Shown here in pieces: positions 1 to 42,968 of a DNA stretch of 47,119 nucleotides. Source of the DNA: a virus; IMG/VR virus record IMGVR_UViG_3300009409_000727, positions 1 through 47,119 of that record; one strand, 5' to 3'. Each line of letters opens with the position of its first letter. Position 1 is the first letter of the stretch. The translations under genes were made by a program, and so were the position numbers. A model generated the notes under the pieces. It was not told the DNA's origin and made no database searches. It saw only the letters and a program-made list of their open reading frames with translations.

Positions 1-640
1 CTATTTCTATCATGGCAGGTTGTTCAAAGTTACTTAATAGCTCTAAAAAATGGTTATTCCATGCATGGCGTTCTTCGTATACTGTACCTTTATTAACATG
101 TATGATACCTATTCTACAGCTAGGGCATTGTAAGTTGCAACTAGCATCTATAGCAAGGTTAATCCAATATATGTATTTGTAATCGTTTGGTTGCCATATC
201 TTAGTGCGTCCTATTCCTTCACGGCCAAGCTCAGGTCCATCTACTATTTTACCATTATCATCATATATAAACCATACATCTTCTTCCTTTACTGGGCCGC
301 AATCTCCTATACTGCAAAACTTAAACGTACTACCTTTCTCAGTACTGGCTTGTAATTTTCGCGCCACATCGTTAGTCCATATATCTTCTAATTTATTAAA
401 GTCAGTTATATGTCCAACAGGGTACGGTAAAAAAGCCGCGCATTGGCATACATAGCAATAGCCACGTAAGTCTATCGTTAAGGAAAGTTGTGGGTTATAG
501 CATTTAAAGTCTAATGGTTCTAATGCACGTTGTGGTCTATTCTTTATATTATGTGCTATAGTACTATGTACATTCTTATGTAGTGGAGTTTTCTTACCTA
601 CTGTGGGCGTATTTTTTCCGAATAACGGGTTATTAAGCAC
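1..640 (-). CDS. Radical SAM protein with N-terminal cysteine domain (partial, C-terminus outside window)
   Basis: The open frame starts at GTG 640-638 and runs off the left edge, leaving about 213 codons. The start is supported by an AGAGGAAA ribosome-binding site just upstream and by an 8-base overlap with the end of the preceding gene (stop 635-633). The radical-SAM motif is CNLQCPSC (Cys168, Cys172, Cys175 from this start), the CX3CX2C set that binds the SAM-cleaving [4Fe-4S] cluster. An N-terminal cysteine-rich segment (Cys47, Cys62, Cys65, Cys67, then Cys109 and Cys114) holds YPVGHI followed by KLEDIW, resembling the PLGNL-LEEIW signature of twitch/SPASM domains. It is the most divergent of the eight radical-SAM genes here, and the GGEP region is not reached. 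Substrate unknown; it is the last visible gene of the operon. Confidence 0.85.
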   Translation of the reverse strand, partial: MLNNPLFGKNTPTVGKKTPLHKNVHSTIAHNIKNRPQRALEPLDFKCYNPQLSLTIDLRGYCYVCQCAAFLPYPVGHITDFNKLEDIWTNDVARKLQASTEKGSTFKFCSIGDCGPVKEEDVWFIYDDNGKIVDGPELGREGIGRTKIWQPNDYKYIYWINLAIDASCNLQCPSCRIGIIHVNKGTVYEERHAWNNHFLELLSNFEQPAMIEI

Positions 641-1982
641 GGAATTTCCTCTTTAATAATCTATAATTGTAACCAATAAGTTCCGCTAAACGTGGGTCAA
701 CGTCATGTAATTTTTCGCGTCGCATCCAGTCAACCTTAAAGATTTGATCCAATAGGTAGCTCTTATCGTGTTCTGGGTCGTCTACCTTATGCGTATACAT
801 GTAGTCCACAATGCTCTTAATCTGTGTAAGGAACTCGTCTCGTAGTTTAAACGCCGTTAAGCGGTCCACAGCATTCCAGTTCCAATGTAATAAGCCGTAT
901 GCTATCTCATCCTTAGCATCGTCGGGTAGTATACTAATGTTAAAGTGTCCGGGTTGATGCATTAAGTTTAAGTACCATGTATCCAAGTTTTCTATATGAC
1001 GTACCCATTCCTGTAACTTAATTAAACTGTTTATGTTAAACAAGTTAATGGTAGTGCATATTTCTGTCGTCATGTTGGGTAGTTTATTATTGCATATATA
1101 GTTTATATTATAGTTAACCTCATCCCAATTAGCACCATAACGTTGGTATTCAAACTTTTTCTCTGTATCGTCTATACTAAAGGATGCTTTAACACCTTTA
1201 AAGTGTGGCCATATGTTCTCTAATGCGTGTATAGGTAACTGTGTTCCATTAGTATTGTAGTGTACATATATGTTCTTAGCATATCCATCCTTAACTGCTT
1301 TCTCTAATACTTCGAAGTGTTCATTAATAAGCCAAGGTTCGCCTCCAGTAAACTCTAGGTGTACTACGTTGGGTAATATATCTTCTAAGTTACTCCAGAA
1401 CGCATCGTTTGTACGTGGCCACTGTCCATCCTTTTGCCACTTATATGCTTGTAAGTCTTTAATATCTTTCTTTTGTACCCCTTCGAACTTAACTGCAATG
1501 TCCATTTCATCCTGGGCCCACTTACTACTACTCATAGGACCGCATATGCGACACTTTAAGTTACATATTGTACCTAACTTTAAGTCCAAATAAACTAAAT
1601 TTTTATCAGTTACCTCATTAGTAAACACATAATCTAACTCAGGATACTTTTGTGAGAACTGTTCTGCCCATACTAATCTCTTACTAGTAATGCCAGTATC
1701 TTCTTCGTCCCAGCATTTTTTACAGTTAGTAGGCTTTTTACTGTCTAGGAAGTCTTTCCGCATTTGTTTCATATGTGTACTATTAAACGCATCCTTTAAA
1801 GTACATGTAGATAAGTTATATGGTTTGTTATTATCGTCTAATACTGGACCTTCAGTCATACAACATGGCTTAACATCTCCTATAGCGGATGCCTCTAAGT
1901 GTATAAACGGTAAGTAGCATAGAGTGGGTATAGCTTTAAATGCTGGATTACGTATACGTCCTAAGTCGTCTTTGGTAGCCAT
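633..1982 (-). CDS. N-terminal-twitch radical SAM protein (pair A, short member)
   Basis: A 449-residue radical-SAM enzyme. The N-terminal twitch-like domain has Cys22, a CC pair at 40-41 and CxxC at 87-90, expected to hold an auxiliary Fe-S cluster. The catalytic CNLKCRIC follows (Cys140, 144, 147), and FTGGEP (about 211-216) is the usual SAM-binding GGE motif. Placing the auxiliary domain before the radical-SAM barrel matches the family NCBI calls twitch domain-containing radical SAM protein (from memory). The C-terminus has R-x-E-K-L-x-D-V-D-P-x-L. It is clearly paralogous to the gene just upstream (YNTNGTQLPIHA and YQRYGANWD occur in both). ATG 1982 overlaps the upstream stop by 22 bases, so translation is probably coupled. 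The reaction and substrate cannot be read from sequence. Confidence 0.9.
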   Translation of the reverse strand: MATKDDLGRIRNPAFKAIPTLCYLPFIHLEASAIGDVKPCCMTEGPVLDDNNKPYNLSTCTLKDAFNSTHMKQMRKDFLDSKKPTNCKKCWDEEDTGITSKRLVWAEQFSQKYPELDYVFTNEVTDKNLVYLDLKLGTICNLKCRICGPMSSSKWAQDEMDIAVKFEGVQKKDIKDLQAYKWQKDGQWPRTNDAFWSNLEDILPNVVHLEFTGGEPWLINEHFEVLEKAVKDGYAKNIYVHYNTNGTQLPIHALENIWPHFKGVKASFSIDDTEKKFEYQRYGANWDEVNYNINYICNNKLPNMTTEICTTINLFNINSLIKLQEWVRHIENLDTWYLNLMHQPGHFNISILPDDAKDEIAYGLLHWNWNAVDRLTAFKLRDEFLTQIKSIVDYMYTHKVDDPEHDKSYLLDQIFKVDWMRREKLHDVDPRLAELIGYNYRLLKRKFRA

Positions 1983-3625
1983 AATTGAGCCATTTCTTTA
2001 TAATCGTATTGTAGTACTGACGCTAACCATGGGTCAATGTCTTGTAAGTTTTCTTTTCTTAAGTAATCGTGTTTATATATTTTACGCCGCGCTTTCGCGC
2101 GAAGAACCGTGAGATCTATATTGTGACTCGCATCCGGGTCAATTATCACATTTGAATTCATATACTCAACAACATTTAATATATTATGGTTAAATGCATC
2201 TTGTAAACCGTATCCTGTCGTGTGTGATGGTAAAAGCCAATTGTAGTTAGTTAAACTATGTTCTATGCTTGCCTTAGCTCTGTCTGGTAACAAACTTATA
2301 TTTAAATATTCTGGGGAATGTAATAAGTTTATATACCAATACGACTTGAGATTACTAATCTCAGGAGCTTCCATAAAGTTTGGGAGTGTTCTTAACCAAC
2401 GATGTATGTCTGGTAAGTTCATAATATTTAATATGTTTACTGTAGTAGTAACTTCCATGTATACATTGTCTGATTTATTGTTTAACATATAAGTTATATT
2501 GTTATGTACATCATCCCAGTTAGCACCGTATCGTTGATATTCATAACGTTTGCCTACATCATCAATGCTAAATGATAGTCTAACTGAGTTAAACTGTGGC
2601 CAAAGGTTCTCTATAGCATGTATAGGCAATTGTGTTCCATTCGTATTATAACTAAGATGTATGTTTTTAGCCAAGCCATCATCAACTATTTGTTGTATTA
2701 ACTTAAACTGTTCTTGTATTAATAAAGGTTCTCCCCCAGTAAATTCTAAGTACTTGAGGTTTGGCAATACATTTTCTGATATATCGTTCCAAAAGTTTTT
2801 ATTCTCGTTAGGCCAATTGCCTGATTTTAATCGTCTATACGGAGCCATTGTTTTAGTTTTAGCTTTAGATATACCGTCAAAAATTATTAATGAATCTATA
2901 TCCTCTTGTGCCCATTTACTACTACTCATGCTATTACATATACGGCATTTTAAATTACATACATTGCCTAATTTTAAATCTACATACTGTATATTTTTCT
3001 CAGTAACTGGGTCAGTGAATAATGTATCAGGTATTGTATCATCTCCACTAAAATGCTCAGCAAAACTAATTCTTTTACTATTAATACCAGCATCTTCTTC
3101 ATCCCAACACCGACTACAATTTGTAGGTTTCTTTCCATTACGAAATTCATCTCGTAATTTATGCATAAATTTTCCTAGGAATGCATCTGTAATAGTATTA
3201 TCTTCTAGATTCCAATGGCCGATATCTTTTTCACCAACCCGTAATAATGGTATATTAAACTCGCGTTCAACGTTGTGTTTTACTAACTTAACATTGTATA
3301 ACATAGATACATCTGATAAGTCCATGAGATTATCTAATTGCATCAGGTCTTTTAATTTTAATAATGCTTCACTCTTTTCACCTGGTAACCAGTCTTGCGT
3401 ACCATCACTATCAATATCATCTAATAATTCTGATAACCTCTCTGGCGCAATTTCAGAATAATCACGCAGTATAGCACCAGTGGCCATACAACACTGTTTA
3501 CATTCACCAGTCGTAGCTGCTTCTATATGCATAAAAGGCAAATAACATAACGTTTGTATCTCTTTAAATATAGGAGCATTACGTTGTATACGTTTATTTG
3601 CTTCTCTTAATTCTTGTTCGTTCAC
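1961..3625 (-). CDS. N-terminal-twitch radical SAM protein with insertion in the cysteine domain (pair A, long member)
   Basis: About 554 residues from GTG 3625, chosen because GTGA overlaps the upstream stop (TGA 3624-3622). A TTG one codon earlier would add one residue. Catalytic CNLKCRIC lies near residues 223-230 and FTGGEP near 295-300. The auxiliary domain has the same frame as its paralogue (one Cys, a CC pair, then CxxCWDEED), but CC and CxxC are 124 residues apart instead of 46. The extra roughly 78 residues are acidic and leucine-rich (about 50-135) with no motif I recognise. The gene looks more AT-rich than its paralogue: a 60-base sample at 2881-2940 has 17 G/C, against 28 at 1501-1560. 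Function unknown. Confidence 0.9.
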   Translation of the reverse strand: MNEQELREANKRIQRNAPIFKEIQTLCYLPFMHIEAATTGECKQCCMATGAILRDYSEIAPERLSELLDDIDSDGTQDWLPGEKSEALLKLKDLMQLDNLMDLSDVSMLYNVKLVKHNVEREFNIPLLRVGEKDIGHWNLEDNTITDAFLGKFMHKLRDEFRNGKKPTNCSRCWDEEDAGINSKRISFAEHFSGDDTIPDTLFTDPVTEKNIQYVDLKLGNVCNLKCRICNSMSSSKWAQEDIDSLIIFDGISKAKTKTMAPYRRLKSGNWPNENKNFWNDISENVLPNLKYLEFTGGEPLLIQEQFKLIQQIVDDGLAKNIHLSYNTNGTQLPIHAIENLWPQFNSVRLSFSIDDVGKRYEYQRYGANWDDVHNNITYMLNNKSDNVYMEVTTTVNILNIMNLPDIHRWLRTLPNFMEAPEISNLKSYWYINLLHSPEYLNISLLPDRAKASIEHSLTNYNWLLPSHTTGYGLQDAFNHNILNVVEYMNSNVIIDPDASHNIDLTVLRAKARRKIYKHDYLRKENLQDIDPWLASVLQYDYKEMAQLWLPKTT

Positions 3626-4869
3626 CAATCAAACTCCGGGAATGTTTCTTTAAAATTTTCGCTACGTATGCCATCTAATTGTGTAGTTAATCGTTTAAAC
3701 TCATCTAACAATGCACTATTACTTGGTTGTTTTATAAAGTTAATAGCACTTTGGTAACCGTTGGTTGCACGTTGTAATGAATCTAATGGAGAGATATAGT
3801 CTATATGCGCCTGATACTTTTCTATAACTAGTTCTTTATAACTCTCAGGTAAATTATCTATACGATAGTGTGGCGGATTCATTAGTATATTAATATTAAA
3901 GTCTTGAGCCTTTATAAATCCTTTGTTAATCCAATTACGGTGAAAGTCTGGCATATGTAAACTGTTTAGAATGCTTAATGTACAACTAATATAGAAGTCA
4001 ACGTTAGGACAAATGCGTAACATCTCTTCTCTATTACGTTCCGTTTGTTCCCAATCAGTTTCCTTTCGTATATATTCCCCACGATCACCCATACCATCTA
4101 ATGATGCGCCTATGCTAACACTATCAAATAATTTCCACATGTCTAATACATTGTGTTGTTTAAATTTTAACTCGCTGAAGTTAGTATTATAAATTAACTT
4201 AACATCGAAACGCTCTTGCTTTATTAGTTCTTCAATTATATTCCAGTGCTCAACCATCATTAAGGGTTCGCCACCAGCAAAGTATATCTGTTCTACGTAT
4301 GGTATATGGCGTTTAGCTTCATTATAGAAGTTCTTATCATCACTACAATGTATTACTTTAGGATGATCTGGCTTACTACCATGCAATGCTTCATAGTCTT
4401 GGTACCAATTGGAACTAAACAATGGCCCACATGTTCTGCAACGGAAGTTACATAGGTTACTAAACCGAACATCCCAGTATACTATCTCAAACTCTGGATC
4501 CATACTGCGAGCCTTTGCTATATGGTGTCCGAAATGTTTATTCGCTGATACCCGGCCACTCATAAAGCCATTCTTATCTTGTTCATAACACTTAGTACAC
4601 TCTTGCAATGCATTACCGTTAACCATTCTATTACGTATCTCCACCATGCGCTCACTATGCCAAATCTCTTCTAGAGTATTGTCGTTTAGATTACCGAGTG
4701 GCATATCCATATCACTCATACAGCATAGGTGAACAGTACTGTCAGGGTAGGCGTGTATATGCGTCCATGGGTACATACAAAAGGTTGGATTCTCTGTTAA
4801 TACCAATTGGTCATATATTGGTAAATCTTCTAACTTAACCTTTAACGGCCGCTTATCATTATAGTCCAT
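3622..4869 (-). CDS. N-terminal-twitch radical SAM protein (pair B)
   Basis: A 415-residue protein. The N-terminal domain shows the clearest twitch/SPASM pattern of the set: Cys31 before PWTHIH, CC at 49-50, PLGNL-x-x-x-TLEEIW at about 57-70, then CTKC at 91-94. The radical-SAM site is CNFRCRTC (Cys140, 144, 147) followed by GPLFSSNW, and FAGGEP lies near 197-202. The C-terminus ends with R-x-E-N-F-x-x-x-F-P-x-F, shared by other members. It is a close paralogue of the gene immediately upstream. ATG 4869 overlaps that gene's stop by 11 bases. Family membership is certain; substrate is not. Most characterised SPASM/twitch enzymes act on peptides or sugars, but their auxiliary domain is C-terminal, so transferring that function would be a guess. 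Confidence 0.92.
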   Translation of the reverse strand: MDYNDKRPLKVKLEDLPIYDQLVLTENPTFCMYPWTHIHAYPDSTVHLCCMSDMDMPLGNLNDNTLEEIWHSERMVEIRNRMVNGNALQECTKCYEQDKNGFMSGRVSANKHFGHHIAKARSMDPEFEIVYWDVRFSNLCNFRCRTCGPLFSSNWYQDYEALHGSKPDHPKVIHCSDDKNFYNEAKRHIPYVEQIYFAGGEPLMMVEHWNIIEELIKQERFDVKLIYNTNFSELKFKQHNVLDMWKLFDSVSIGASLDGMGDRGEYIRKETDWEQTERNREEMLRICPNVDFYISCTLSILNSLHMPDFHRNWINKGFIKAQDFNINILMNPPHYRIDNLPESYKELVIEKYQAHIDYISPLDSLQRATNGYQSAINFIKQPSNSALLDEFKRLTTQLDGIRSENFKETFPEFDW

Positions 4870-6178
4870 AGTTTTTCCATAATCCTTTTAACTCTGGGAA
4901 TACTCTATGGAAATTCTCATTACGGAACCTATCATACTTGTTTATTTCGTCTTGAAACTTTGGTATAAGGTCCGTTCTATCTTCACTATACATAAAATTG
5001 ATTGCACTCTCAAAGCCATTAGTAGCTCGTTTAATATCGTCAGCGTCTGCTATACTACTTATGTGTTCTTCGTATAGTGATTTAACTTCTGCCTTCATAT
5101 TCTCTGGTAGTATACTGAGTCTATAATAATCCGGACCTTGTAATATGTTAACATGAAAGTCGTATACGCCTATAAGGCCACGCTCTACCCAATCGTTATG
5201 GAAGTCTGGTAGGTGGTATGCGTTTAATACTTGTAATGTGGCACTGGGAAAAAAGTCTACGTCAGGGCACACGTCAAGCATGTCGTAACGGTTCTTTAGT
5301 ATAGTATCCCATACCGTTCCCTTACGTATATACTCTGCTCTATCACCCATACCGTCTAATGATGCGCCTATGCTAACGTCATTGAATAACTTCCACATAT
5401 CGAATACAGAGCGTCCTTTATACTTGACTTCAGAGAAATTTGTGTTATATACTAACTGAACATCAAACATTTCGCGTTTAACTAACTCATCCATTATACG
5501 CCAATGCTCTTCCATCATTAAAGGTTCACCACCGGCCCAGTATATCTTATGTAAGTTGTCTATATAAGGAGCGACCATGTCCCAGTTAAGTTGTTTATTG
5601 CCACGAGTGTAATCAATCTTTAATGAGTCGCCGCCATACATAGCATTATACTCGTTTACCCAATTAGAACTAAACGCTGGCCCACACATACGGCATTTAA
5701 AGTTACATAGATTGGTAAAGCGAACGTCCCAATAGATTGGATTAACAGTAGAGCTACCATCAGGAGTGGTGGTGATATCCTTTATACTATATGCAAAGTT
5801 TCTATTACTCTCATTACGGAGACTATAGAAGCCATTGCGTTCCTTCTCATAACACTTAACGCATTCCTTACTGGGTCTATCGTTAAGCATATTGAGTCGC
5901 ATAGTCCTATAGGCCTTATTATTCCATACCTCTTCCAATGTATTGTCGCGTAGATTACCTATAGGCTCATCAGGGTCGGACATACAGCACGGGTAAGCAT
6001 TACCATCGGACCATCCGTGTATATGGACCCACGGTAGCATACAGAAGTTATTACTATTAGTGAGTAAATCATGCTCCTCTATAGTAAAGAAGTCTATAGG
6101 CAACGATTGTTTATTACGATCCAATAACAGTGTAGTAGTGTTAAACGGTGTATCTTTGTTAAGGTAACCTTTATCCAT
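4859..6178 (-). CDS. N-terminal-twitch radical SAM protein (pair B)
   Basis: A 439-residue paralogue of the next gene downstream. Auxiliary cysteines: Cys46 (before MLPWVHIH), CC at 64-65, CVKC at 106-109, with EPIGNL and TLEEVW between them. Catalytic CNFKCRMC is at Cys158, 162, 165 followed by GPAFSSNW, and WAGGEP is at about 214-219. The C-terminal R-x-E-N-F-x-x-x-F-P-E-L is near the end. The start overlaps the stop of the CmoA-like gene by 8 bases (ATGGATAA), a layout repeated across this operon and typical of translational coupling. Compared with its paralogue it has a longer linker between the auxiliary domain and the barrel (about 130-147). Function unknown beyond radical SAM chemistry. 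Confidence 0.92.
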   Translation of the reverse strand: MDKGYLNKDTPFNTTTLLLDRNKQSLPIDFFTIEEHDLLTNSNNFCMLPWVHIHGWSDGNAYPCCMSDPDEPIGNLRDNTLEEVWNNKAYRTMRLNMLNDRPSKECVKCYEKERNGFYSLRNESNRNFAYSIKDITTTPDGSSTVNPIYWDVRFTNLCNFKCRMCGPAFSSNWVNEYNAMYGGDSLKIDYTRGNKQLNWDMVAPYIDNLHKIYWAGGEPLMMEEHWRIMDELVKREMFDVQLVYNTNFSEVKYKGRSVFDMWKLFNDVSIGASLDGMGDRAEYIRKGTVWDTILKNRYDMLDVCPDVDFFPSATLQVLNAYHLPDFHNDWVERGLIGVYDFHVNILQGPDYYRLSILPENMKAEVKSLYEEHISSIADADDIKRATNGFESAINFMYSEDRTDLIPKFQDEINKYDRFRNENFHRVFPELKGLWKNYGL

Positions 6179-6860
6179 CTGCTTCTTTAATACAGAGCAT
6201 ACCTACAAAATTAAAATTTTGCCAAAATGTTTCGACTATTTCAAAACCCGCAAGCCTGCACATTTCATCTAATTCGTCTATAGTTAAAGGTTCCATCATA
6301 TGTCGTAGAGTTTGTTCCTTATCTAACAATTCCTCTGCACTATAAAACTGACGTTTATAATCGTAATAACAAAACTGCATCATTTCTTGTAACTGTGCGT
6401 GTTCACTATAAATCTTTTCAGCAAATATAAATGCCCCACCCTTCACTAGTGAGTCATAAACATGTTCAATAATAACCTGTCTATTTCTTTTTGGTACAAA
6501 TTGTAATGAAAATATTGATGTGGTGAAACAGTTATTCTCTGCTTCCGCTGTCCACTCAAAAGACCTAACATCTGTTTTATAAAACTTTAGATTTTTTTCA
6601 TCTATTAATTCTGAGAAAAAATCTTTCTCAATTTCAATACCCTTATACTCTACCTCGGGTGCAAACTTATTATTCTGTAATTTCATCGCCTTCAAAAGTT
6701 TTCCTGTTGAGCAACCGATGTCAACTACTGTGCAACCATCTTCTACAAAGTATTCTGAAAACTTTAGAATGTCACTCCAAAGATTAGAATACCCACGAAT
6801 AGATTGGTCGATATGTTCATCGAACCCTTCTTCTGCTTGTGCAAATGTAAATTTAGTCAT
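6171..6860 (-). CDS. CmoA-like class I SAM-binding protein (carboxy-SAM synthase homologue or methyltransferase)
   Basis: 229 residues from ATG 6860, chosen because ATGACTAA overlaps the upstream stop by 8 bases and GAGG lies about 10 bases before it; ATG 6875 is the longer alternative. Similarity to E. coli CmoA extends end to end by eye: FDEHID and GYSN near the N-terminus, SAM motif I VVDIGCSTG (45-53), SLQF (118-121), GGAFIFAEK (141-149), DYKR (167-170) and F-W-Q-N-F-N-F (212-218). CmoA converts SAM plus prephenate to carboxy-SAM for tRNA wobble-uridine modification. Its carboxylate-binding arginine (Arg199 in E. coli, from memory) falls opposite Glu182 here, so carboxy-SAM synthesis is doubtful and ordinary methyl transfer or another SAM analogue is possible. 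No CmoB was seen. It sits between radical-SAM genes in one operon, suggesting shared chemistry. Confidence 0.8.
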   Translation of the reverse strand: MTKFTFAQAEEGFDEHIDQSIRGYSNLWSDILKFSEYFVEDGCTVVDIGCSTGKLLKAMKLQNNKFAPEVEYKGIEIEKDFFSELIDEKNLKFYKTDVRSFEWTAEAENNCFTTSIFSLQFVPKRNRQVIIEHVYDSLVKGGAFIFAEKIYSEHAQLQEMMQFCYYDYKRQFYSAEELLDKEQTLRHMMEPLTIDELDEMCRLAGFEIVETFWQNFNFVGMLCIKEADG

Positions 6861-8217
6861 GGGGTAATGCCTCATACCATAGTTTTAAGTTAGGGAAAGT
6901 ATCTGTAAAGTTCTTACCTCTACGCTCGTCGTATTGCTTATAGAAGTGATAGAAGTCGTTCTTTAATGCAGCTGGTTCGAACGTATCACTGTGTGGTTTC
7001 TCTACAACGTTTAAGTAGTCTAATAGACGCAGTATGTGGTTGCGTTCCATCTCATGTAGTTGCTTTTCGTTTAACACGAGCCAATACGCTAAGTCGTCTC
7101 TGTATGATTGTAGTATGGGTCGCGGTAGCACTAACGGTGATTGGAATGATGGAAACCTTAATATGTTTAAAGTAAACGTAGGAAAGTCCTTGCCGTATAC
7201 ATCTTTAAAGCTCATTACATGGTCTAAGAACTTAGGCAACGAGTCTAAGCATAAACTGTTAACAGTACACATCATATGAAAGCCTTCTAAGTTACCGTCT
7301 CTACACACACGATGGCAGTTATTAACCCAAGTATCCCACTCTAACCCGTCTCTAATATACTCTGCTTGTGCGCCAAATGCTTCACAAGATGTATATAGGT
7401 GTAAATGCGGAACATGTTGTGCGTTCTCTATAAAGCGATCTATAAGATCGTCTTTAGCACCTAAGTTAGAGTTAATAGCGAGCCGCATGTCGGACTTCTT
7501 ATCCGTTGTTTTAAACCAATCGAACAACTTCCATATCTCGCCTGCCATCATAGGTTCACCACCAGTAATGCGTAGTTCGTCTAACGTGTCGTGTAGCTCT
7601 AACTCCCACCATTTCCAAAAGGCTTCTACGTATGGGTTAACCTCATCGTGCTTATACAACTGTGCTTCGTTGTGTTCGTGTGTAAAATGGTTACGTCCAT
7701 CTGACTTTAACTGTGTATACTCACCGTTGTTCTTTATATCTTTAACCCAAGTACTACTAAAGGCGGGATTGCAATAAGAGCAACTAAAATTACAAGTCCT
7801 ATCAAAGGCAATTTCAAGTGTACGTAAAGCAAAATTCTCTGTAGGTTCTTCATGTTTAACATAATGTACATCCTCTTCGTCGTATATAACAGACTTGTGG
7901 ACACGATCGGAGATAGCATCGGGTCCAATGTCTTCTATCTTCCAGCAATACTCACAGCCTGGTGGACGTTCGCCCGCAAGCATTTGTGTTCTATCCTGCT
8001 TCTTTTGCTGTGTGTTGTGTATAGCGGCAGGGTTTGATGCTAGTTCTTTAATGTCTATCTTATGTGCAGGCGGATGGTGGCAACTGGTAGTCATACCACT
8101 GCCTAACCATATAGTAGCATTGCGCCATTTAGCCATGCAGAAGGATGGACTTACTGTGTCGTTAAGCCATCGCTTAATGTCTAAATCTGTTTCCCTTCCT
8201 GGCGTTCTTAACGTCAT
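6853..8217 (-). CDS. N-terminal-twitch radical SAM protein (pair C)
   Basis: A 454-residue protein. The auxiliary domain differs from pairs A and B: after SPSFCMAKW (Cys27) the CC pair is replaced by C-H-H-P-P (Cys46), then CEYC at 88-91. The catalytic motif is CNFSCSYC (Cys142, 146, 149) followed by NPAFSSTW, and ITGGEP is at about 217-222. The C-terminus carries RGKNF-x-x-x-FP-x-L. Its paralogue is the gene at 9606. The start forms an ATGA overlap with the SufT-like gene. The CHHP change probably alters how the auxiliary Fe-S cluster is bound; histidine ligation is an inference. Substrate unknown. Confidence 0.92.
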   Translation of the reverse strand: MTLRTPGRETDLDIKRWLNDTVSPSFCMAKWRNATIWLGSGMTTSCHHPPAHKIDIKELASNPAAIHNTQQKKQDRTQMLAGERPPGCEYCWKIEDIGPDAISDRVHKSVIYDEEDVHYVKHEEPTENFALRTLEIAFDRTCNFSCSYCNPAFSSTWVKDIKNNGEYTQLKSDGRNHFTHEHNEAQLYKHDEVNPYVEAFWKWWELELHDTLDELRITGGEPMMAGEIWKLFDWFKTTDKKSDMRLAINSNLGAKDDLIDRFIENAQHVPHLHLYTSCEAFGAQAEYIRDGLEWDTWVNNCHRVCRDGNLEGFHMMCTVNSLCLDSLPKFLDHVMSFKDVYGKDFPTFTLNILRFPSFQSPLVLPRPILQSYRDDLAYWLVLNEKQLHEMERNHILRLLDYLNVVEKPHSDTFEPAALKNDFYHFYKQYDERRGKNFTDTFPNLKLWYEALPHD

Positions 8218-8549
8218 AGTATTCCCATCTCTAGTTTAGCATGTTCTGGTATCATCATAGGACCCCAAGGTGGGTCAAACGTCATATCTACTTTAATGTT
8301 ATTAAGACTACCAACCTCACATGCTTCATTTACTTGTTGATATAACATGTCGCCAACAGGGCAAAACGCCGATGTTAACGTCATTGTTACTGTTAAGTTT
8401 AAATCCTCTGTAATATCTATATCATATATTAAACCTAAGTCGTATATATTGATGTTTATTTCAGGATCATATACATGTCGTAAGTTGTTTACTATCTGAT
8501 CTATTATAGGATCAGTGCCTTGTTCATATGTTGTTGCGTGTGTTTTCAT
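8214..8549 (-). CDS. SufT/MIP18-family (DUF59) Fe-S cluster assembly protein
   Basis: A 111-residue protein, nearly all one MIP18/DUF59 domain. It has DPE followed by YDLGLIY (28-42), a strand-rich middle, the conserved Cys63 in AFCPVGD and DPPWGP (92-97). Family members (SufT, PaaD, eukaryotic MIP18/CIA2) help load or mature [4Fe-4S] proteins. It overlaps both neighbours by ATGA and is flanked by radical-SAM genes. The natural reading is that it helps deliver Fe-S clusters to the many [4Fe-4S] enzymes of the operon, which together would need two clusters each. That role is inferred from context; the family call is strong. No other Suf or Isc gene is in the window, so host machinery would supply the scaffold. 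Confidence 0.9.
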   Translation of the reverse strand: MKTHATTYEQGTDPIIDQIVNNLRHVYDPEININIYDLGLIYDIDITEDLNLTVTMTLTSAFCPVGDMLYQQVNEACEVGSLNNIKVDMTFDPPWGPMMIPEHAKLEMGIL

Positions 8550-9613
8550 AATATACCTGTTATATTACGATGTTTGTTTAAAATGCTATCTTGTAATAAG
8601 AATTCATCGTATATTTTTTTGTCAAACTTGTATTCTATTAAACTTTTTATAATATAATCTACATGTTTCTTAAATGTAATATCTTTATACGCATTAGTAT
8701 TTTTTATTTTATGCATGTTTACTAGTGCATCATCTTTAAATGGAAAATTAGTAAAGTAATATATTTTAGGATCTTCCAAAATATTTAATAAAATAACACT
8801 ATCGCTATAATTTTCTTCTATCCATTCTACTAATAAATGTAAATTACTTACATTATAGTTCATTACAGTTATATTAAAACATATTGATTTACTAAATCCC
8901 TTATATATTTCCAGGTTTTTAATAAATTTTTCCCACTTATTAGGGTATCGTATATGTTCATATACTTCATCATATCCATCACAACTAGCAATAATGTGTA
9001 TGTTATTAAATAATTTTAATTTATCTATTAAGTTTTTACTGTTGGTAGAGCAATTAGTATTAAATTGTAACTTGACATCTAATTGATCTTGTTGTATGCA
9101 TTTATCTAATAAGCCTTCTAGTTCAGGATTTAAAAATGGTTCTCCTCCTGCCATATATAAATGCTCTATTGTATCTATATTAATAATATCTAATGTAGCA
9201 ATTGAGGGAGATTTGATATAGTCTCGCGCCAATGCTACCCATTCTTTTTGTTTAGTAGTACTATTAATAGGATTACACATACGACAACTTAAATTACAAG
9301 TGTCATCATTGCGTAAGTCGTATGATACTAATTTTATTTCGCCATTGGCGAGAACATTGCCGTCAGTATTAGCATGTTGACGAGGACTTACTCTATTCTT
9401 TTCTTCCAAGTCCCAGCAATAACTACAAGCGTCAGGTTTATCTCCATATGACATAGCATGACGCACGTTAGTCAATTGTTCATTACGGTACCAATTAAAT
9501 GTATTATCATATTTCTCTACAGGTTTTGCCCAACAGCAAGGGCGTATATCATTGTATTGATCTATATGTAAATGACTAAATGCTTTAACACAATACGTAT
9601 CACTCCTACCCAT
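8546..9613 (-). CDS. N-terminal-twitch radical SAM protein, short and AT-rich
   Basis: At 355 residues this is the shortest complete radical-SAM protein of the set. Auxiliary cysteines: Cys8, CC at 26-27, CSYC at 63-66. Catalytic CNLSCRMC is at Cys106, 110, 113 and MAGGEP at 154-159. The N-terminus is trimmed (the first Cys is at residue 8), and the C-terminus ends at HRNITGIL, where relatives continue through an NF-x-x-x-FP motif. Composition differs sharply from neighbours: 60-base samples at 8701-8760 and 9001-9060 have 13 and 11 G/C, against 26 at 8041-8100 and 25 at 9721-9780. This suggests a separate, perhaps recent, acquisition. The start overlaps the upstream stop by 8 bases, so it is well integrated in the operon. 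Confidence 0.9.
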   Translation of the reverse strand: MGRSDTYCVKAFSHLHIDQYNDIRPCCWAKPVEKYDNTFNWYRNEQLTNVRHAMSYGDKPDACSYCWDLEEKNRVSPRQHANTDGNVLANGEIKLVSYDLRNDDTCNLSCRMCNPINSTTKQKEWVALARDYIKSPSIATLDIINIDTIEHLYMAGGEPFLNPELEGLLDKCIQQDQLDVKLQFNTNCSTNSKNLIDKLKLFNNIHIIASCDGYDEVYEHIRYPNKWEKFIKNLEIYKGFSKSICFNITVMNYNVSNLHLLVEWIEENYSDSVILLNILEDPKIYYFTNFPFKDDALVNMHKIKNTNAYKDITFKKHVDYIIKSLIEYKFDKKIYDEFLLQDSILNKHRNITGIL

Positions 9614-11039
9614 GTGACAACCTCTTGCACTCTTCCCACCAGTCTATCATCTCTGGGAATGTTTTTATAAAATTAGTACCACGACGGTTGTCGTGCTCGT
9701 TAAAAAAGCGATAAAAGTCTGCTTTACAGTTGTCTACATACATTGGATCTAACTTACTACCTTCCTGCCACCATGCTAAGTCTCTATGCATACGTTGAAT
9801 TTCATAATCTTTAAAGCCTTTAAAGCGAGATTTCTCGTCTTCCATGTTATCTAACATCCAACATGTGTTCTCTTCGTGTATATCTTGGTATGGTTCAGGC
9901 AATAACTGTATGCTTTGCCAAGCAGGCTGTCGTAATAGCGGTGTATCAAACCATACACGTTGATAAGTTTCACTATATGCTTGTCGCAAACCGTGTATAT
10001 AGCCTAATAACTTATCCATTCCTGTAATACTTAAATTGTTATATGTTATAATAAACGTTAAAGAGTTTCTGTACGGAACTTCCGTTAAGTATGTGTTGAT
10101 ATTATCGCACATCTTATTAAAGTCTAACCCATTACGTATATACTCGGCTTGTTCCAGCCAACTGTCTACACTAACGTATTGCATAAAGTGTTCTACTTTC
10201 TCTTCCAAGCATATGCGTTTAACTTTTTCTAAGTATTTGTCAAACAATTTGTTGTCTACTGGACTAAAGTTACTTGTAACGTTTACATGTAAGTCGCTTT
10301 TGGGGTTGTCTATAATGTAATCAAATACTTTATATGTATTCTTATCCATCATAGGCTCACCACCAGTCATACGGAAATGCTTTAAGTCTTTATATAAGTC
10401 AGGCCACCATTCCCAAAACGCTTCTACATAAGGATTATACTTGCTATGTGGTATACAAGGGTTAATCTCAAAGTGTTCAGGTGCGTTATGTGGTTTAGAT
10501 GTAGGCCAGGCACCGTGCTGTTTCATTTCTTTATCCCACGCAGTACTAAACTGTGGACTACAGTAACTACATTTTAAGTTACAGTTGTGATTAAAGTTTA
10601 CTTCTACATAACGTGGGTTCTTATCTGCATCCCACGGAGCATTAACTACATCGTCAAAGTCCATTGCGGCCCACGGCTCACCACTTCTGTAATGCCTATC
10701 GCTTAAATGTCCAGTATCTTCTATGTTCCAACAGTACTGGCACTCGCTAGGGCGCACGCCTTCTAACATAAGTTTACGCATTTCTTTCTTATGTTGAGTG
10801 TTATGTAATGCTGATGGAGTGCCTAACTCCATTTTATGTAGCGGTGGGTGATAACAACTGTTGTTTAATCCAGTTGGTAAATGTAAACTAACTTGGTTCC
10901 ATTTCGCAAGACAAAAGGATGGCGATACAGAGTCTAACTGTACTTTAATATCCTCGGCACTTTTATAGAAATCTGACTTAAACTTACCATCTTTAACTTC
11001 TATTTTATCGCCTTTATTATCCTTGTATAGTTGATTCAT
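9606..11039 (-). CDS. N-terminal-twitch radical SAM protein (pair C)
   Basis: A 477-residue paralogue of the gene at 6853. It has about 40 extra N-terminal residues before SPSFCLAKW (Cys43), then C-Y-H-P-P (Cys62), CQYC (100-103), catalytic CNLKCSYC (Cys153, 157, 160) and MTGGEP (224-229). The C-terminal R-R-G-T-N-F-x-x-x-F-P-E-M is conserved. As in its partner, the usual CC of the auxiliary domain is C-[HY]-H-P-P. ATG 11039 overlaps the upstream membrane-protein gene by 23 bases. It is the first radical-SAM gene of the cluster in the direction of transcription. Radical-SAM assignment is certain; substrate is unknown. Confidence 0.92.
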   Translation of the reverse strand: MNQLYKDNKGDKIEVKDGKFKSDFYKSAEDIKVQLDSVSPSFCLAKWNQVSLHLPTGLNNSCYHPPLHKMELGTPSALHNTQHKKEMRKLMLEGVRPSECQYCWNIEDTGHLSDRHYRSGEPWAAMDFDDVVNAPWDADKNPRYVEVNFNHNCNLKCSYCSPQFSTAWDKEMKQHGAWPTSKPHNAPEHFEINPCIPHSKYNPYVEAFWEWWPDLYKDLKHFRMTGGEPMMDKNTYKVFDYIIDNPKSDLHVNVTSNFSPVDNKLFDKYLEKVKRICLEEKVEHFMQYVSVDSWLEQAEYIRNGLDFNKMCDNINTYLTEVPYRNSLTFIITYNNLSITGMDKLLGYIHGLRQAYSETYQRVWFDTPLLRQPAWQSIQLLPEPYQDIHEENTCWMLDNMEDEKSRFKGFKDYEIQRMHRDLAWWQEGSKLDPMYVDNCKADFYRFFNEHDNRRGTNFIKTFPEMIDWWEECKRLSHG

Positions 11040-11340
11040 GGTTATGGCTACTATCCATTTCGTGATGGTTCTTATTTAATGAATAAAATATTACTGTTGC
11101 TATTACAGCGCCTACAATTACTCCTTGTGTAAATCGTTTAATAGTTTTCCAATTACGTGTTCGTTGTTCTGCACTAAAGTTTTGCCACTTCTTGTATCCT
11201 TTCCAAAACTTCCACATTGAGTATACAGTTAAAATTACTGCTATACCTATGAGGTAAGGTGTGTAAGGACTATCTATAGATAATATACCTACACTAATTA
11301 ATAAGGCGATTAAGCCATTTACCCAGCAAATTGGACACAT
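11017..11340 (-). CDS. Small membrane protein with CPIC N-terminus and His-rich C-terminus
   Basis: 107 residues, not recognised. It starts with MCPIC and has three likely membrane spans (about 8-22, 28-45 and 73-88). Between spans 2 and 3 lies a basic, aromatic stretch (WKFWKGYKKW). The tail is rich in histidine and acid residues (HHEMDSSHNHE, about 92-102). The CPIC plus His-rich tail could bind a metal, but this is only a pattern. The start codon shares its A with the stop of the Lys-rich mini-ORF (TAATG), and the 3' end overlaps the first radical-SAM gene by 23 bases. The operon position suggests a link to the radical-SAM cluster. Confidence 0.7.
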   Translation of the reverse strand: MCPICWVNGLIALLISVGILSIDSPYTPYLIGIAVILTVYSMWKFWKGYKKWQNFSAEQRTRNWKTIKRFTQGVIVGAVIATVIFYSLNKNHHEMDSSHNHESTIQG

Positions 11341-11503
11341 TACTTAGGCTTCTTCGGTTTTTTCTTTTCTTTCTTAGGTTTGTCTCTGTTTTTACCTTCC
11401 ATCCTTGCCTCCCTGTTTTTCTAGTTGTATCTACTTCTCCAAACTCTCCCATGCTTTTACCGTGTAGTTTAGTTCTACTAAAGTTATAAAGGTCATGGTT
11501 CAT
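11294..11503 (-). CDS. Small hypothetical protein, C-terminal half doubtful
   Basis: ATG 11503-11501 shares its A with the stop of the upstream glycosyltransferase (TAATG), which supports this start. The first half (MNHDLYNF, then GKSMGEFGEVD) looks like real coding sequence. The second half (RKKRKNRR, then SLSNVSNLLGKW) runs 47 bases into the membrane-protein gene and reads like out-of-frame sequence. The 20-residue Lys-rich frame in the same DNA fits the junctions better. I therefore trust the start but not the end. Function unknown. Confidence 0.45.
   Translation of the reverse strand: MNHDLYNFSRTKLHGKSMGEFGEVDTTRKTGRQGWKVKTETNLRKKRKNRRSLSNVSNLLGKWLNRLIN
11340..11402 (-). CDS. Lys/Pro-rich mini-ORF (20 residues)
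   Basis: ATG 11402 to TAA 11340 encodes 20 residues, about half lysine, with repeated K-K-P-K. A strong Shine-Dalgarno GGGAGG sits 5 bases before ATG, and the stop overlaps the next start as TAATG, the junction used elsewhere here. Both suggest it is translated. It could instead be the true C-terminus of the upstream ORF reached by a -1 frameshift or after a base error in AAAAA near 11416-11420. No function is known. Being basic and next to a radical-SAM cluster, it could be considered as a peptide substrate, but nothing more supports that. Confidence 0.45.
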   Translation of the reverse strand: MEGKNRDKPKKEKKKPKKPK

Positions 11504-12429
11504 TACCAACCCTCTATTTGTCGTATTACATCCAATTCTTGTATCATTATATCATAGTTTGTGTGCTTGCTGTAATGTGTTTTAAAGAACTTACTTGCTT
11601 CAGCATCCATTTCGCATATAGGCATACCTAATTTGTTCTGTAATATTTCTCCTATACGCTCTGCTTCATCCCATGGGTTTTGCATTTCGTATTCTCCATG
11701 ATATATCTCATTGAGGTATGTAAAGTCTCTTACATTAACATAATCCCAATCAGTAAGCATAGTTAAATACGTGCCTAAACGTGAGCCGTATATACTCCAT
11801 ATGCCGTGCTCAACATCGCGTCCTACAGTTTGCCATATACATAAGTTATCTAAATTGCGAGCATGTATTTGTTCCTCAAATGTTTTTAAGTCAGGTTTAG
11901 TTCCTTTGTTTAAAACCATTTTAACACCTTCTCTAAACCCAGCACGCCATGCGTGTAATGCTGAACCATTTGGGTATGTTGTGCTATAGCAGTTATGCAT
12001 TGGTCTATAGTTGTCGTCAAAACAAAACTCTACTAATGTTTCATCACTACCATCAGTGTTCTCATGTGTAGTCATATTTAATACAAAGTCCACAGGCCAA
12101 CAACTTAACCCACCATTGCCATACATTAGTCCGTTTATAATATTACGACCCTTCCATCTAAACACACAATGTTTAGTAACATCATCCAATGTTAATTGTA
12201 AGTTAAAAAACTCTGGGTCGGGTAAGTTATCACCGTCTATTAAAACAAATCGTCCTGAAGGAGAAGCTCTAGCCGCGGCCTTGTGCGCGGCATCTGATCC
12301 TTCTACACCATCAATGTGTATTGCCCAAGGCACCATGTTTAGTATCTTGGCCCAAAACTCATCCTTTTGCGGCTCATCATATGTTAGGTATATACAATCT
12401 AAGTCAGCAATATCAACTATTTCAGTCAT
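11503..12429 (-). CDS. GT-A fold glycosyltransferase (GT2-like)
   Basis: 308 residues from ATG 12429 (MTEIVDIADL). This start is chosen because AGGAAGGA lies immediately upstream and it overlaps the previous stop; the open frame continues to 12537 but that part looks non-coding. Glycosyltransferase features: G-x-x-G-S-D-A-A-H-K-A-A-A (about 41-53), then VLIDGDNLPDPEFF (62-75) with the metal/nucleotide-sugar DxD at Asp65-x-Asp67. This matches family 2 GT-A enzymes. A later W-R-A-G-F-R-E-G segment may be the acceptor side. It would transfer a sugar from a nucleotide donor to an unknown acceptor. It is one of three glycosyltransferases between the operon promoter and the radical-SAM genes. Confidence 0.7.
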   Translation of the reverse strand: MTEIVDIADLDCIYLTYDEPQKDEFWAKILNMVPWAIHIDGVEGSDAAHKAAARASPSGRFVLIDGDNLPDPEFFNLQLTLDDVTKHCVFRWKGRNIINGLMYGNGGLSCWPVDFVLNMTTHENTDGSDETLVEFCFDDNYRPMHNCYSTTYPNGSALHAWRAGFREGVKMVLNKGTKPDLKTFEEQIHARNLDNLCIWQTVGRDVEHGIWSIYGSRLGTYLTMLTDWDYVNVRDFTYLNEIYHGEYEMQNPWDEAERIGEILQNKLGMPICEMDAEASKFFKTHYSKHTNYDIMIQELDVIRQIEGW

Positions 12430-12721
12430 ATTCCTTCCTAAACATATCAAGACAGATTCGATAGTTAATACATTTTGGATAAAATGAGTTTGTTTGTTCG
12501 TATGTTCTCGCAAGTAATTCTTTTCTACATATAGCATCCATACGTAAATTAGGATTAAAGTTCTGGAATATACGATGTGTAGTCATTATATCTTGCGCCG
12601 CACCCCGACACTCTCCTTCCGAATGCATTCGTATTTGATACCAAACATCATTCTCACCTTGGTACTGTCCACTAAATGGACCTACACTTAACATTATCAT
12701 TAACAACCATGGTTCCCACAT
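12422..12721 (-). CDS. Small hypothetical protein with hydrophobic N-terminus and four cysteines
   Basis: 99 residues from ATG 12721; AAGGAAATAACA just before it supports this start over the longer frame to 12754. The N-terminus WEPWLLMIMLSVGPFSGQYQ is hydrophobic and could be a signal peptide or anchor, though it lacks a basic n-region. The rest has four well-spaced cysteines (in GECRG, AICRK, PKCIN, RICLD) that could form disulfides if exported. No family recognised. It overlaps the downstream glycosyltransferase start by 8 bases. Confidence 0.65.
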   Translation of the reverse strand: MWEPWLLMIMLSVGPFSGQYQGENDVWYQIRMHSEGECRGAAQDIMTTHRIFQNFNPNLRMDAICRKELLARTYEQTNSFYPKCINYRICLDMFRKEYD

Positions 12722-12731
12722 TGTTATTTCC

Positions 12732-12959
12732 TCAAGGGTTAAATGCCTTCTCAAACTTATTTGCTTCTGTTTTTGTCTTAAACGATACTCTTACACCTAA
12801 TGCATACACAGTGTCATCTAATATATATTCCTTTTTGCAATTTTCTTCACACCATGTTTTAACGTTTTTATAAATTTTAATTGCTTTTTTAAACTCTTTA
12901 TTTTTAATTACCTCACCCTTCTTTATTTTCCAAGGGAATTTAGCATGTTTTACAATCAT
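12732..12959 (-). CDS. Small hypothetical basic protein
   Basis: 75 residues, lysine-rich (K-I-K-K-G-E, K-E-F-K-K-A-I-K), with a WCEENC motif near 36-41. No family recognised. ATG 12959 forms an ATGA overlap with the upstream stop, and the downstream gene follows after 10 bases with its own ribosome-binding site. It is AT-rich relative to the adjacent glycosyltransferase. It is probably cytoplasmic, with no membrane segment. Confidence 0.65.
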   Translation of the reverse strand: MIVKHAKFPWKIKKGEVIKNKEFKKAIKIYKNVKTWCEENCKKEYILDDTVYALGVRVSFKTKTEANKFEKAFNP

Positions 12960-13390
12960 TTTTTCTCCTGTTGTAATTGATAATAATTTTCATCCTTATT
13001 GAATTTTACTTTATCAGCAGTAATAACTTGTTTAATAATCCTATGATCCTTGTCTGTAACATATACAGGCAAGTCTGGATCCAATTCTGTTGCGTGTGTT
13101 ACTTTAGTATATTTTCTTAAACGGTTGTATACATCATGTTTAACTGGCTCCAACTTACCATTAACTATTACCCAATCAGTAATATGATTAGTATCTAACC
13201 ATTTAGAAGGTATTTTAATGTGACTACGTAATTCATCTACATATGTAGATGCTTCATATATAGTGCCGTTATCATGATGATATAAGCAGTAATCTGCTTT
13301 AGCAACATCTAGATCAACTTGAGTCTCAATTGCTTCTATTAAATCGTCTAGGCCTTTTATACTTTTGTTTAATGGTTTAATTCCTTTCAT
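12956..13390 (-). CDS. Hypothetical protein
   Basis: 144 residues with mixed alpha/beta character and no motif I can name. It contains DYCLYHHDNGTIYEAS near residues 33-48 and ends with a charged, glutamine-rich tail. It overlaps the upstream glycosyltransferase by 14 bases and the downstream ORF by ATGA, so it is part of the same polycistron. The absence of hydrophobic stretches suggests a soluble protein. Nothing in the sequence fixes a function. Confidence 0.7.
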   Translation of the reverse strand: MKGIKPLNKSIKGLDDLIEAIETQVDLDVAKADYCLYHHDNGTIYEASTYVDELRSHIKIPSKWLDTNHITDWVIVNGKLEPVKHDVYNRLRKYTKVTHATELDPDLPVYVTDKDHRIIKQVITADKVKFNKDENYYQLQQEKK

Positions 13391-14240
13391 AGTATTCTAT
13401 TGTTTTGTCTGCTAGGTACTCTTTACATTCTGCACCATGCACTGGATATATTTGTGGCTCTACACCTAATATTAATCCAACATCATCACTATATTCTATG
13501 TTAATAATGTCTTCTATCTTATGTGACTCTGGCCAACCTAGTATACTGTTCTTCATATGTACAAATGTTGGATAGTCTAACACATTGTTTGTATGCGTGT
13601 ACTCTGCTTCTTGTAATACTAATGCTATTGCCAACGCAACATCAGTTGTAGGCTTTTCATCCCTACAGTTCTTTAATTGCTCTGATACTTCATCCCAATT
13701 TTTATAAACCCATTTTAATGTTTTAAATAGGTTTAGACTATCTTCACCATAACGGAAGTACATAAACCCACTATAAGTGTTAGGTAAGTTGTTGATATCA
13801 AAGAGTTTTCTGTATTTGCGTGAGTTAGATATAGAACCGTCTAGTTTGCGAACATTAGTCGCAATCATTACTTCCTGCTCACGCATAAATGTCCACCAAT
13901 GATCTATGTTGCGTGTGAACACAATATCGCAATCTAACTTAACTGTCTCTTTAAACGGCGTTATTGACCACGCCTTCCATTCATTACCTAGCTTCCATGA
14001 GTCATCCTTACTATCATCGCCCCACGGAATGTCTATTACATAGTCAAATACTTTGTAATGCTTTTCTACTAATTGTTCTTTAGTTGGTTTATCTACAGCG
14101 ATAGCAAACTTGTTTATAGTTTGTGTTGCTTTTAGACTTAATCCACAGGCATATGCTAGTTTTAAATAGTCAGTACTATCGTTATTTTGAACAAATGTGA
14201 AATATCCAATTTGTTCATCATGCTCTTTGGTGCGTTTCAT
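13377..14240 (-). CDS. GT8-like GT-A glycosyltransferase
   Basis: 287 residues. The N-terminal strand GYFTFVQNN resembles the start of nucleotide-sugar-binding folds, and V-K-L-D-C-D-I-V-F gives a DxD motif (Asp103-x-Asp105) as in GT-A families such as GT8. Near the C-terminus, PQIYPVHGAECKEYL may form the acceptor/donor side. It resembles the next gene upstream in length, DxD position and the preceding I-T-P-[FY]-x-[EK]-T segment, so the two are probably distant paralogues. The start forms an ATGA overlap with that gene. Donor and acceptor unknown. Confidence 0.6.
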   Translation of the reverse strand: MKRTKEHDEQIGYFTFVQNNDSTDYLKLAYACGLSLKATQTINKFAIAVDKPTKEQLVEKHYKVFDYVIDIPWGDDSKDDSWKLGNEWKAWSITPFKETVKLDCDIVFTRNIDHWWTFMREQEVMIATNVRKLDGSISNSRKYRKLFDINNLPNTYSGFMYFRYGEDSLNLFKTLKWVYKNWDEVSEQLKNCRDEKPTTDVALAIALVLQEAEYTHTNNVLDYPTFVHMKNSILGWPESHKIEDIINIEYSDDVGLILGVEPQIYPVHGAECKEYLADKTIEYYERN

Positions 14241-15073
14241 GTTTGAATAAATGTATGCGTTATAGTTGGTTGTGTGGCATATTGTAATATTTCATCTGTA
14301 TGTTCTAATATACTATATTTGTTCATAATATGAATATTAGTATTTTTTATGTATGTCACTTTATCATCAAACCCATATGTAACAACACCATCTTCTTGTA
14401 CAGTGTTAATTGAATATTGTGAAGGGAGAGTAAAGAGTGGATCTAGAAAATAATAATCTAAACTTAATAAATTATATGCAATACTTATAGCATAATCATT
14501 TCTATATGGACCCATCTTGAAATTATACAATTTATAATAATATTGATAGTTGTCTTGTACTAATTTAACTAGGTTAAAGAACTCTCTTGCTGTATCATTT
14601 TTAGTAAAATACAACACAGTTGCCCATAACATTGGAATACTACTCCAATGTAGCATTTTATCATCAATAAAACTATCTTTTTCTGTAATATCATATACAG
14701 TATTATGACATAATAATTCTTTATCAGACTGAAATAGCCATTGCAATGAGTTATTAAACATAAGATAATCTACATCTAACAGTAATGTTTTCTCATAAGG
14801 GGTTATATCATATGCTTGAGGGCGAGTTTTATTATGCCAAGTAACTTCTTCTGTTTTTCCATCAGGAGTTCTAAAAGTACGACGATTACTATCACCCGCT
14901 TCAAGTATGATAACATCGTCAAAAGGACCTTCAATAAGGTTATCAGTGACTAATGTAACCCCTGTGTTAGGTAAGTGTTTGCGTACAAGTAACGCACAGA
15001 GCTTGGCGAGTTCTGTATATTTTATAGATTCGTTATTGTAAGCAAATAATAATACGCCATTTTCGGTAGGCAT
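14237..15073 (-). CDS. GT8-like GT-A glycosyltransferase
   Basis: 278 residues. It begins NGVLLFAYNNESIKYTELA, typical of GT8-type phage proteins that scan a host or phage acceptor. T-L-L-L-D-V-D-Y-L-M-F supplies the DxD (Asp100-x-Asp102), preceded by ITPYEK as in its neighbour. The middle is aromatic-rich (YQYYYKLYNF, about 175-184). The gene is AT-rich. The start shares its A with the upstream stop (TAATG). It is the second gene after the operon promoter. Likely role: glycosylating phage DNA, a virion protein or host glycan; the sequence does not choose between these. Confidence 0.6.
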   Translation of the reverse strand: MPTENGVLLFAYNNESIKYTELAKLCALLVRKHLPNTGVTLVTDNLIEGPFDDVIILEAGDSNRRTFRTPDGKTEEVTWHNKTRPQAYDITPYEKTLLLDVDYLMFNNSLQWLFQSDKELLCHNTVYDITEKDSFIDDKMLHWSSIPMLWATVLYFTKNDTAREFFNLVKLVQDNYQYYYKLYNFKMGPYRNDYAISIAYNLLSLDYYFLDPLFTLPSQYSINTVQEDGVVTYGFDDKVTYIKNTNIHIMNKYSILEHTDEILQYATQPTITHTFIQT

Positions 15074-15423
15074 TAAATTTGTTCGGGTTTTCTTGTTGCT
15101 CTGATTGTTTTGATATCTTCGAGATATTCGTTATTGACTTCATAGTATCGTTGCCACAGTTTCTCGGTAAAGTCTCGTGGATCTTCTATTAATATAGGAT
15201 TATCATAAGAATCTAATACTACTGTGGGATTTGCTTCTAAATCTGCTGATTGTGCTATAGCGGCGCGTAGCGACATTAACTCGGCAAAATTAATTAATTC
15301 TCTTGTTATTTTAAATAAGCCGCTGTTATAAGGAAGGGATAATAAACCTAAAGTGGCCTCACGCTTTGTTGCGTGAGCCACCTTTTGGTTAAATTTCTTT
15401 TTAACTGTATCTTTCACATTCAT
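15073..15423 (-). CDS. Hypothetical protein, first gene of the accessory operon, probably leaderless
   Basis: 116 residues, unrecognised. The basic N-terminus (MNVKDTVKKKFNQK) is followed by helical segments and an acidic region (IEDPRDFTEKLW, about 83-94). ATG 15423 lies 8 bases from the -10 box of a perfect sigma-70-type promoter, with no Shine-Dalgarno sequence, so the mRNA probably begins at the start codon. If a leader is required, the first downstream internal Met is too far in to be attractive (near residue 50). It leads a polycistron that continues through the glycosyltransferases and radical-SAM genes. Confidence 0.7.
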   Translation of the reverse strand: MNVKDTVKKKFNQKVAHATKREATLGLLSLPYNSGLFKITRELINFAELMSLRAAIAQSADLEANPTVVLDSYDNPILIEDPRDFTEKLWQRYYEVNNEYLEDIKTIRATRKPEQI

Positions 15424-15430
15424 ATATAAT

Positions 15431-15459
15431 ATTATACATGAATAACTTTATTATGTCAA
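15431..15459 (-). promoter_or_regulatory. Consensus sigma-70-type promoter of the accessory operon
   Basis: On the minus strand TTGACA (15459-15454), exactly 17 bases, then TATAAT (15436-15431): a perfect match to the bacterial housekeeping consensus. Seven bases separate the -10 box from ATG 15423, so the predicted transcription start coincides with the start codon. No later gene boundary down to the left edge shows a comparable promoter, so this may drive the whole 15-kb unit. Confidence 0.85.
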
Positions 15460-42932: not shown

Positions 42933-42940
42933 TATTTATT
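42933..42940 (-). promoter_or_regulatory. Putative late promoter box (AATAAATA) of the virion block
   Basis: One mismatch to the T4 late consensus TATAAATA, 23 bases before ATG 42909 and upstream of an AGGA ribosome-binding site, the arrangement expected for a T4-type late gene. It lies back to back with the gp55 promoters. Confidence 0.55.
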
Positions 42941-42968
42941 TGACTTTTTAATGTATGTGTATTATAAT
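42940..42968 (+). promoter_or_regulatory. Sigma-70-type promoter for gp55
   Basis: TTGACT (42940-42945), 17 bases, TATAAT (42963-42968): one mismatch to consensus. Predicted initiation near 42975 leaves a leader of about 24 bases with GGAGCGG before ATG 42999. Confidence 0.8.

Follow-up and report, generated by a model that had tools for sequence, protein, structure and literature searches.

Leaderless transcripts of phages are known from few cases. In the Thermus phage phiYS40, the middle and late genes are largely expressed as leaderless mRNA which is translated by the host (PMC3594737), and the cI mRNA of phage lambda is the textbook example of a leaderless phage transcript (cited in PMC9031893). 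In Deinococcus-Thermus, expression of the "-10 region adjacent to ORF" genes is affected by the distance to the start codon (PMC12340547), and in the jumbo phage AR9 the 5' leaders are 26–491 nt long (PMC5312081). In the present work, we have analyzed a 47-kb fragment of a marine giant phage from IMG/VR (47,119 nucleotides; hereafter the window), in which a sigma-70 promoter closely precedes an ATG at position 15423 on the minus strand. Our analyses indicate that this is very probably a strong promoter from which the host housekeeping polymerase makes a leaderless mRNA, and one member of a promoter class found throughout a clade of related phages.

The window is a fragment of a jumbo T4-type phage that is distantly related to Pseudomonas phage PA5oct. 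Its gp55-like protein matches those of jumbo T4-type phages, the best matches being PA5oct-like Pseudomonas phages (46% identity), and the order of the gp55, gp47, gp46, and baseplate genes is common to this phage and PA5oct (Arenbergviridae). A single ORF of 4855 aa occupies positions 18789–33356, a structural region, and a giant virion protein is found in the same relative place in PA5oct.

The promoter and start codon at 15423

On the minus strand, the locus reads TTGACA, a 17 nt spacer (TAATAAAGTTATTCATG), TATAAT, the 7 nt ATTATAT and the ATG at 15423, with the promoter spanning 15459..15431 (Table 1). The hexamers match the sigma-70 consensus at 12 of 12 positions around a spacer within the 16–18 nt range. 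The predicted +1 coincides with the start codon or is only a few nt from it, and would be the A of the ATG or a base not more than 1–2 nt away. No Shine-Dalgarno (SD)-like motif is present in the 20 nt preceding this ATG. The perfect promoter, the 7 nt distance and the lack of an SD motif described in the initial annotation of this DNA are confirmed by the sequence at 15459..15423. An in-frame TAA is found 27 nt upstream of the ATG with no ATG, GTG, or TTG in between; hence, 15423 is the first possible start and a longer N-terminus is impossible. None of the later in-frame starts of the 116 aa gene (codons 3, 15, and 50) has an SD motif. An Rfam search of the window gave no match, so that no RNA element is recognized at this site.

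Table 1. Features of the 15423 locus and of the other promoters discussed (window coordinates).
Feature	Position	Strand	Basis or remarks
-35 hexamer TTGACA	15454..15459	-	Sequence; invariant in 13 orthologous loci
Spacer, 17 nt	15437..15453	-	Length kept, sequence diverged (52% pairwise identity)
-10 hexamer TATAAT	15431..15436	-	Sequence; invariant in 13 orthologous loci
Gap ATTATAT, -10 box to ATG	15424..15430	-	7 nt; 6–7 nt in all orthologues
Lead gene, 116 aa, predicted leaderless	15073..15423	-	First ORF of the operon
Rest of operon (twitch radical SAM, SufT-like, methyltransferase-like, weak GT-like)	633..15073	-	Family matches
Second perfect promoter TTGACA-17-TATAAT	43835..43863	+	Overlaps stop codon of gp55-like gene
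gp47/SbcD-like gene, predicted leaderless	43871..44896	+	ATG 7 nt past -10 box, no SD
Contrasting 11/12 promoter	42940..42968	+	30-nt leader, SD (GGAG), gp55-like late sigma gene at 42999

That this arrangement is maintained by selection is indicated by its orthologues. In 13 viral contigs (sizes of contigs with the lead gene are, for example, 322, 235, and 202 kb), the lead gene is found behind a promoter in which TTGACA, the 17 nt spacing, and TATAAT are identical, and the ATG is located 6 or 7 nt downstream of the -10 box in 13/13 loci. Pairwise comparison of five distinct versions shows the hexamers to be identical at 120/120 positions and the spacers at 88/170 (52%), while the differences in codons 2–30 of the lead gene are mainly synonymous and run right up to the ATG. 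The invariance of the hexamers, spacing, and ATG beside a divergent spacer indicates joint selection on the promoter, its spacing, and the start codon. L097, the fourteenth relative and a remote one (32% identity, starting at residue 21), has no such promoter.

The comparative data are stronger evidence against chance than the counts within the window. Perfect TTGACA-(16–18)-TATAAT sites occur twice in the window vs. 0.21 expected, and 5 of 100 shuffles also reach two, so that in DNA of 35% GC the hexamers alone are only mildly surprising; promoters scoring 9–10/12 are no commoner in the window than in shuffles. An AT-rich genome might on this basis be supposed to yield functionless consensus promoters with an ATG at such a distance. 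However, conservation beside a divergent spacer, together with the enrichment across the clade reported below, leaves this reading disfavoured and hardly credible. Both perfect promoters of the window are located exactly 7 nt before the start of an ORF on their own strand. The earlier prediction of a leaderless mRNA at 15423 is strongly supported by the conserved promoter, spacing, and ATG, the drifting spacer, the mainly synonymous changes that reach the ATG, the lack of an SD motif at later starts, and the recurrence of the arrangement before about a dozen other gene families.

A class of promoters adjoining start codons

Promoters were scanned in the window and six related contigs (G001 and G003–G007), several of which are closely related to one another; redundancy was removed by similarity rather than from a tree, and gene calls in the relatives are simple ORF calls. 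In these seven contigs, an ATG lies 5–8 nt downstream of 19 of the 32 perfect promoters that are non-redundant, against 3.0 expected (P = 3e-12). The corresponding figure for the named jumbo relatives (viz. RaK2, Salicola phage SCTP-2, PA5oct, and Atu_ph07) is 3 of 65 (Fisher P = 5e-9 between the two groups), RaK2 and Salicola phage SCTP-2 having many perfect promoters and almost none with an ATG so close; one of the three is that of the annotated exonuclease gene of PA5oct. The site singled out in the initial annotation is thus real, but it does not stand alone and is one member of a promoter class.

A set of strong promoters, in which one mismatch was allowed and the ATG lies 4–9 nt from the -10 box, reveals the spacing in more detail. 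All 15 of the non-redundant ORFs of at least 40 aa in this set begin at 6 nt (nine) or 7 nt (six), whereas ATGs that open only shorter ORFs are spread over 4–9 nt, with 8 of 29 at 6–7 nt (Fisher P = 2e-6). Two of the 15 ORFs (G001 211132 and G005 225149) are apparently orthologues that have diverged, which leaves about 14 gene families in the class. Gene starts found 0–60 nt behind strong promoters fall into two modes, one at 6–7 nt without an SD motif and the other at about 20–45 nt, often with one; two apparent starts at 0–1 nt belong to genes of the 6–7 nt class and are ATGs further upstream in the same frame. SD-like motifs are found before 0 of 26 leaderless-class genes, the orthologues among which are not independent, vs. 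31–37% of other genes, and before 0 of the 15 non-redundant class genes (P about 0.002).

The spacing also bears on where transcription would begin. RNA polymerases are able to start 5–9 nt downstream of the -10 box, an A is present 2 nt upstream of the ATG at 15423 (within ATTATAT), and in some relatives the gap before the gp47 ATG is 12 nt. It could accordingly be proposed that the promoter is used but that transcription starts 2–5 nt ahead of the ATG. The mRNA would then have a very short leader and no 5'-terminal AUG, and its translation would rely on A/U-richness or ribosomal protein S1 and not on leaderless 70S initiation. We consider this unlikely. The 6–7 nt mode is sharp, with no non-redundant coding ORF at 4, 5, 8, or 9 nt, and the base preceding the ATG is T in 11 of the 15 non-redundant class genes, which favours A as +1. 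Polymerases favour a pyrimidine-purine step at this position. For the leaderless reading, a start-site shift of 1–3 nt, and hence a leader of 0–3 nt, is possible. Nor is the spacing strictly kept, some relatives having the ferredoxin ATG at 9 nt and that of gp47 at 12 nt.

The genes of the 6–7 nt class include the operon leader, gp47, an IMP dehydrogenase (IMPDH)-like protein, nucleoside deoxyribosyltransferase, ThyX, a Toprim (primase-like) protein, a PD-(D/E)XK-like exonuclease, a 4Fe-4S ferredoxin, and several unknowns. The promoter arrangement of gp47 is also present in G001 and G005. Judged from their sequences, the genes headed by the class appear to be those of nucleotide, DNA, and redox metabolism, and by analogy most of these functions are the ones expected early in T4-like infection. 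Early-type functions coupled with a sigma-70 consensus make early reading by the host polymerase plausible, also for the operon at 15423.

At some perfect promoters, the ATG at 5–8 nt opens a very short ORF only, so that an ATG near +1 may partly reflect start-site preference; an AUG at this place may have a role, or reflect a bias, beyond coding. At G001 314190 and 313673 minus and at G005 7832, a perfect promoter is followed by an ATG at 5 nt that opens an ORF of 7–9 codons, and the short ORF at 313673 is followed 1 nt later by the start codon (ATG) of a longer gene and may thus encode a leaderless leader peptide. At 5583 minus in L098 (G001), 22433 in G005, and 167821 in G003, a perfect promoter precedes a conserved stretch (AGTGCTCAATTGGGAGGC...) with tiny ORFs only, which is perhaps a small RNA; an Rfam search of G001 gave no match above the cut-off.

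In an IMG/VR-wide comparison, among the matches listed, ORFs are opened by 68 of 128 ATGs located 5–8 nt from a perfect promoter and by 22 of 114 located at 13–16 nt; the arrangement is therefore probably wider than the present clade. A habit shared by host genomes was considered and rejected. Eleven alphaproteobacterial genomes were picked by ferredoxin similarity and may not include the host of the phage; ten of them have 0–1 perfect promoters, none with an ATG at 5–8 nt. In the remaining genome, a MAG that carries L429, such promoters are located on contigs which, at least in part, match the phage clade and look like contaminating phage. L484–L491 of this public Candidatus Pelagibacter MAG appear to be jumbo-phage contamination that shows the promoter arrangement described here.

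The accessory operon and its proposed expression

The initial annotation placed a 15-kb operon behind the promoter, and 17 minus-strand ORFs are indeed found between 15423 and 633 (about 14.8 kb), most of which abut or overlap; the contig end may cut the operon short, its remainder lying beyond. Relatives retain the gene order of the operon, apart from genes gained or lost locally. The description of this operon as a radical SAM and glycosyltransferase operon holds for its first part, since six of its proteins are assigned to NCBIfam N_Twi_rSAM (twitch-domain radical SAM) and a seventh ORF (6853–8217) has a weak Pfam radical SAM match; the glycosyltransferase label is weakly supported, one of the two candidates having a glycogenin-like match at E = 0.14. 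The 116 aa lead gene has no match in Pfam, PHROG, or PADLOC. The six to seven twitch-domain radical SAM proteins, with the SufT-like and GT-like proteins (633–15073), adjoin tail genes. A reading of the operon as a defence system was rejected, as one radical SAM protein shows weak viperin-like similarity and nothing more.

The upstream tail gene ends at 15463 with its TAA 3 nt before the -35 box, leaving an intergenic gap of 39 nt in which no terminator-like site was found; hence, the operon could also be read from the tail genes. Such compactness might by itself have set the -10 box against the ATG, the operon being expressed mainly by read-through from the tail genes and coupled translation. 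This explanation is improbable. Among orthologues, the hexamers are invariant beside a drifting spacer, and many unrelated loci have the same geometry, which indicates that the promoter itself is under selection.

In the leaderless mechanism that we favour, the host housekeeping RNA polymerase would read the strong sigma-70 promoter at 15459..15431 and, with the -10 box so near the gene, would begin transcription at the A of the start codon, give or take one or two bases; the ribosome would then begin at the 5'-terminal AUG of the 116 aa gene. Most internal genes of the operon lack an SD motif, which makes translational coupling the likely route; translation of the downstream radical SAM genes would depend on such coupling where genes overlap and on a few internal SD sites. 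No internal promoters above the shuffle expectation were found within the operon. The remaining genes behind strong promoters would be expressed from leaders of about 20–45 nt, often with an SD motif.

The two modes of gene starts also allow a more tentative proposal. The phage ribosomal protein bS21 is encoded at 5659–5814 minus in L098 (G001), 167017–167172 in G003, 23069–23224 in G005, and 170985–171143 in PA5oct, and its start is preceded by an SD motif (TTGGAG..ATG) in the clade contigs inspected. It has been proposed that, late in infection, phage transcripts are favoured by phage bS21 (PMC9723584). Such a late role would suggest a switch of initiation mode, in which early genes would be leaderless from host promoters and later genes SD-led, the latter being favoured once phage bS21 enters the ribosome; we regard this temporal programme as a doubtful, outside possibility. 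A 689 aa ORF at 193911 (+) of G003, which by eye resembles translation elongation factor G, has an 11/12 promoter and an SD leader.

Leaderless genes are easily mis-started or missed by gene finders that seek SD motifs. The present class is recognizable from sequence and conserved across a jumbo-phage clade, and it predicts start sites to the base. If the leaderless reading is true, these phages choose their initiation mode gene by gene.

Comparison with known systems

In the literature available, from which many subscription papers are missing, we found no description of leaderless genes that form a clade-wide set behind perfect sigma-70 promoters. A counterpart in a cultured relative is the annotated exonuclease CDS of PA5oct (158242–158907), which starts 7 nt after a perfect promoter, encodes a 42–43% identical homologue of the leaderless exonuclease of the clade, and provides a test case. 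Unlike the clade, PA5oct has an ATG at 5–8 nt behind only 2 of its 11 perfect promoters, the exonuclease alone being an annotated gene start, and the 11 nt between its gp55 and gp47 genes are too few for the promoter arrangement.

As in phiYS40, leaderless phage transcripts would be translated by the host, although here they are predicted from sequence. The phiYS40 class differs in consisting of middle and late genes and in the accompanying rise of IF2 and fall of IF3, whereas the present class has perfect sigma-70 promoters and early-type-looking genes. The possibility that leaderless translation is assisted by a phage-encoded IF3 or IF1 was considered and rejected, neither gene being found in the clade contigs searched. 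In the Deinococcus-Thermus genes the -10 box likewise adjoins the start codon, but those genes belong to cellular genomes, while the ones described here are phage genes with a full -35 box, 17 nt spacing, and -10 box. The lambda cI leaderless mRNA is also made from a sigma-70 promoter; however, it represents one regulated gene vs. about 14 gene families in the present clade. Leaderless phage mRNA is already known, and what would be new is a clade-wide set of such genes behind perfect sigma-70 promoters.
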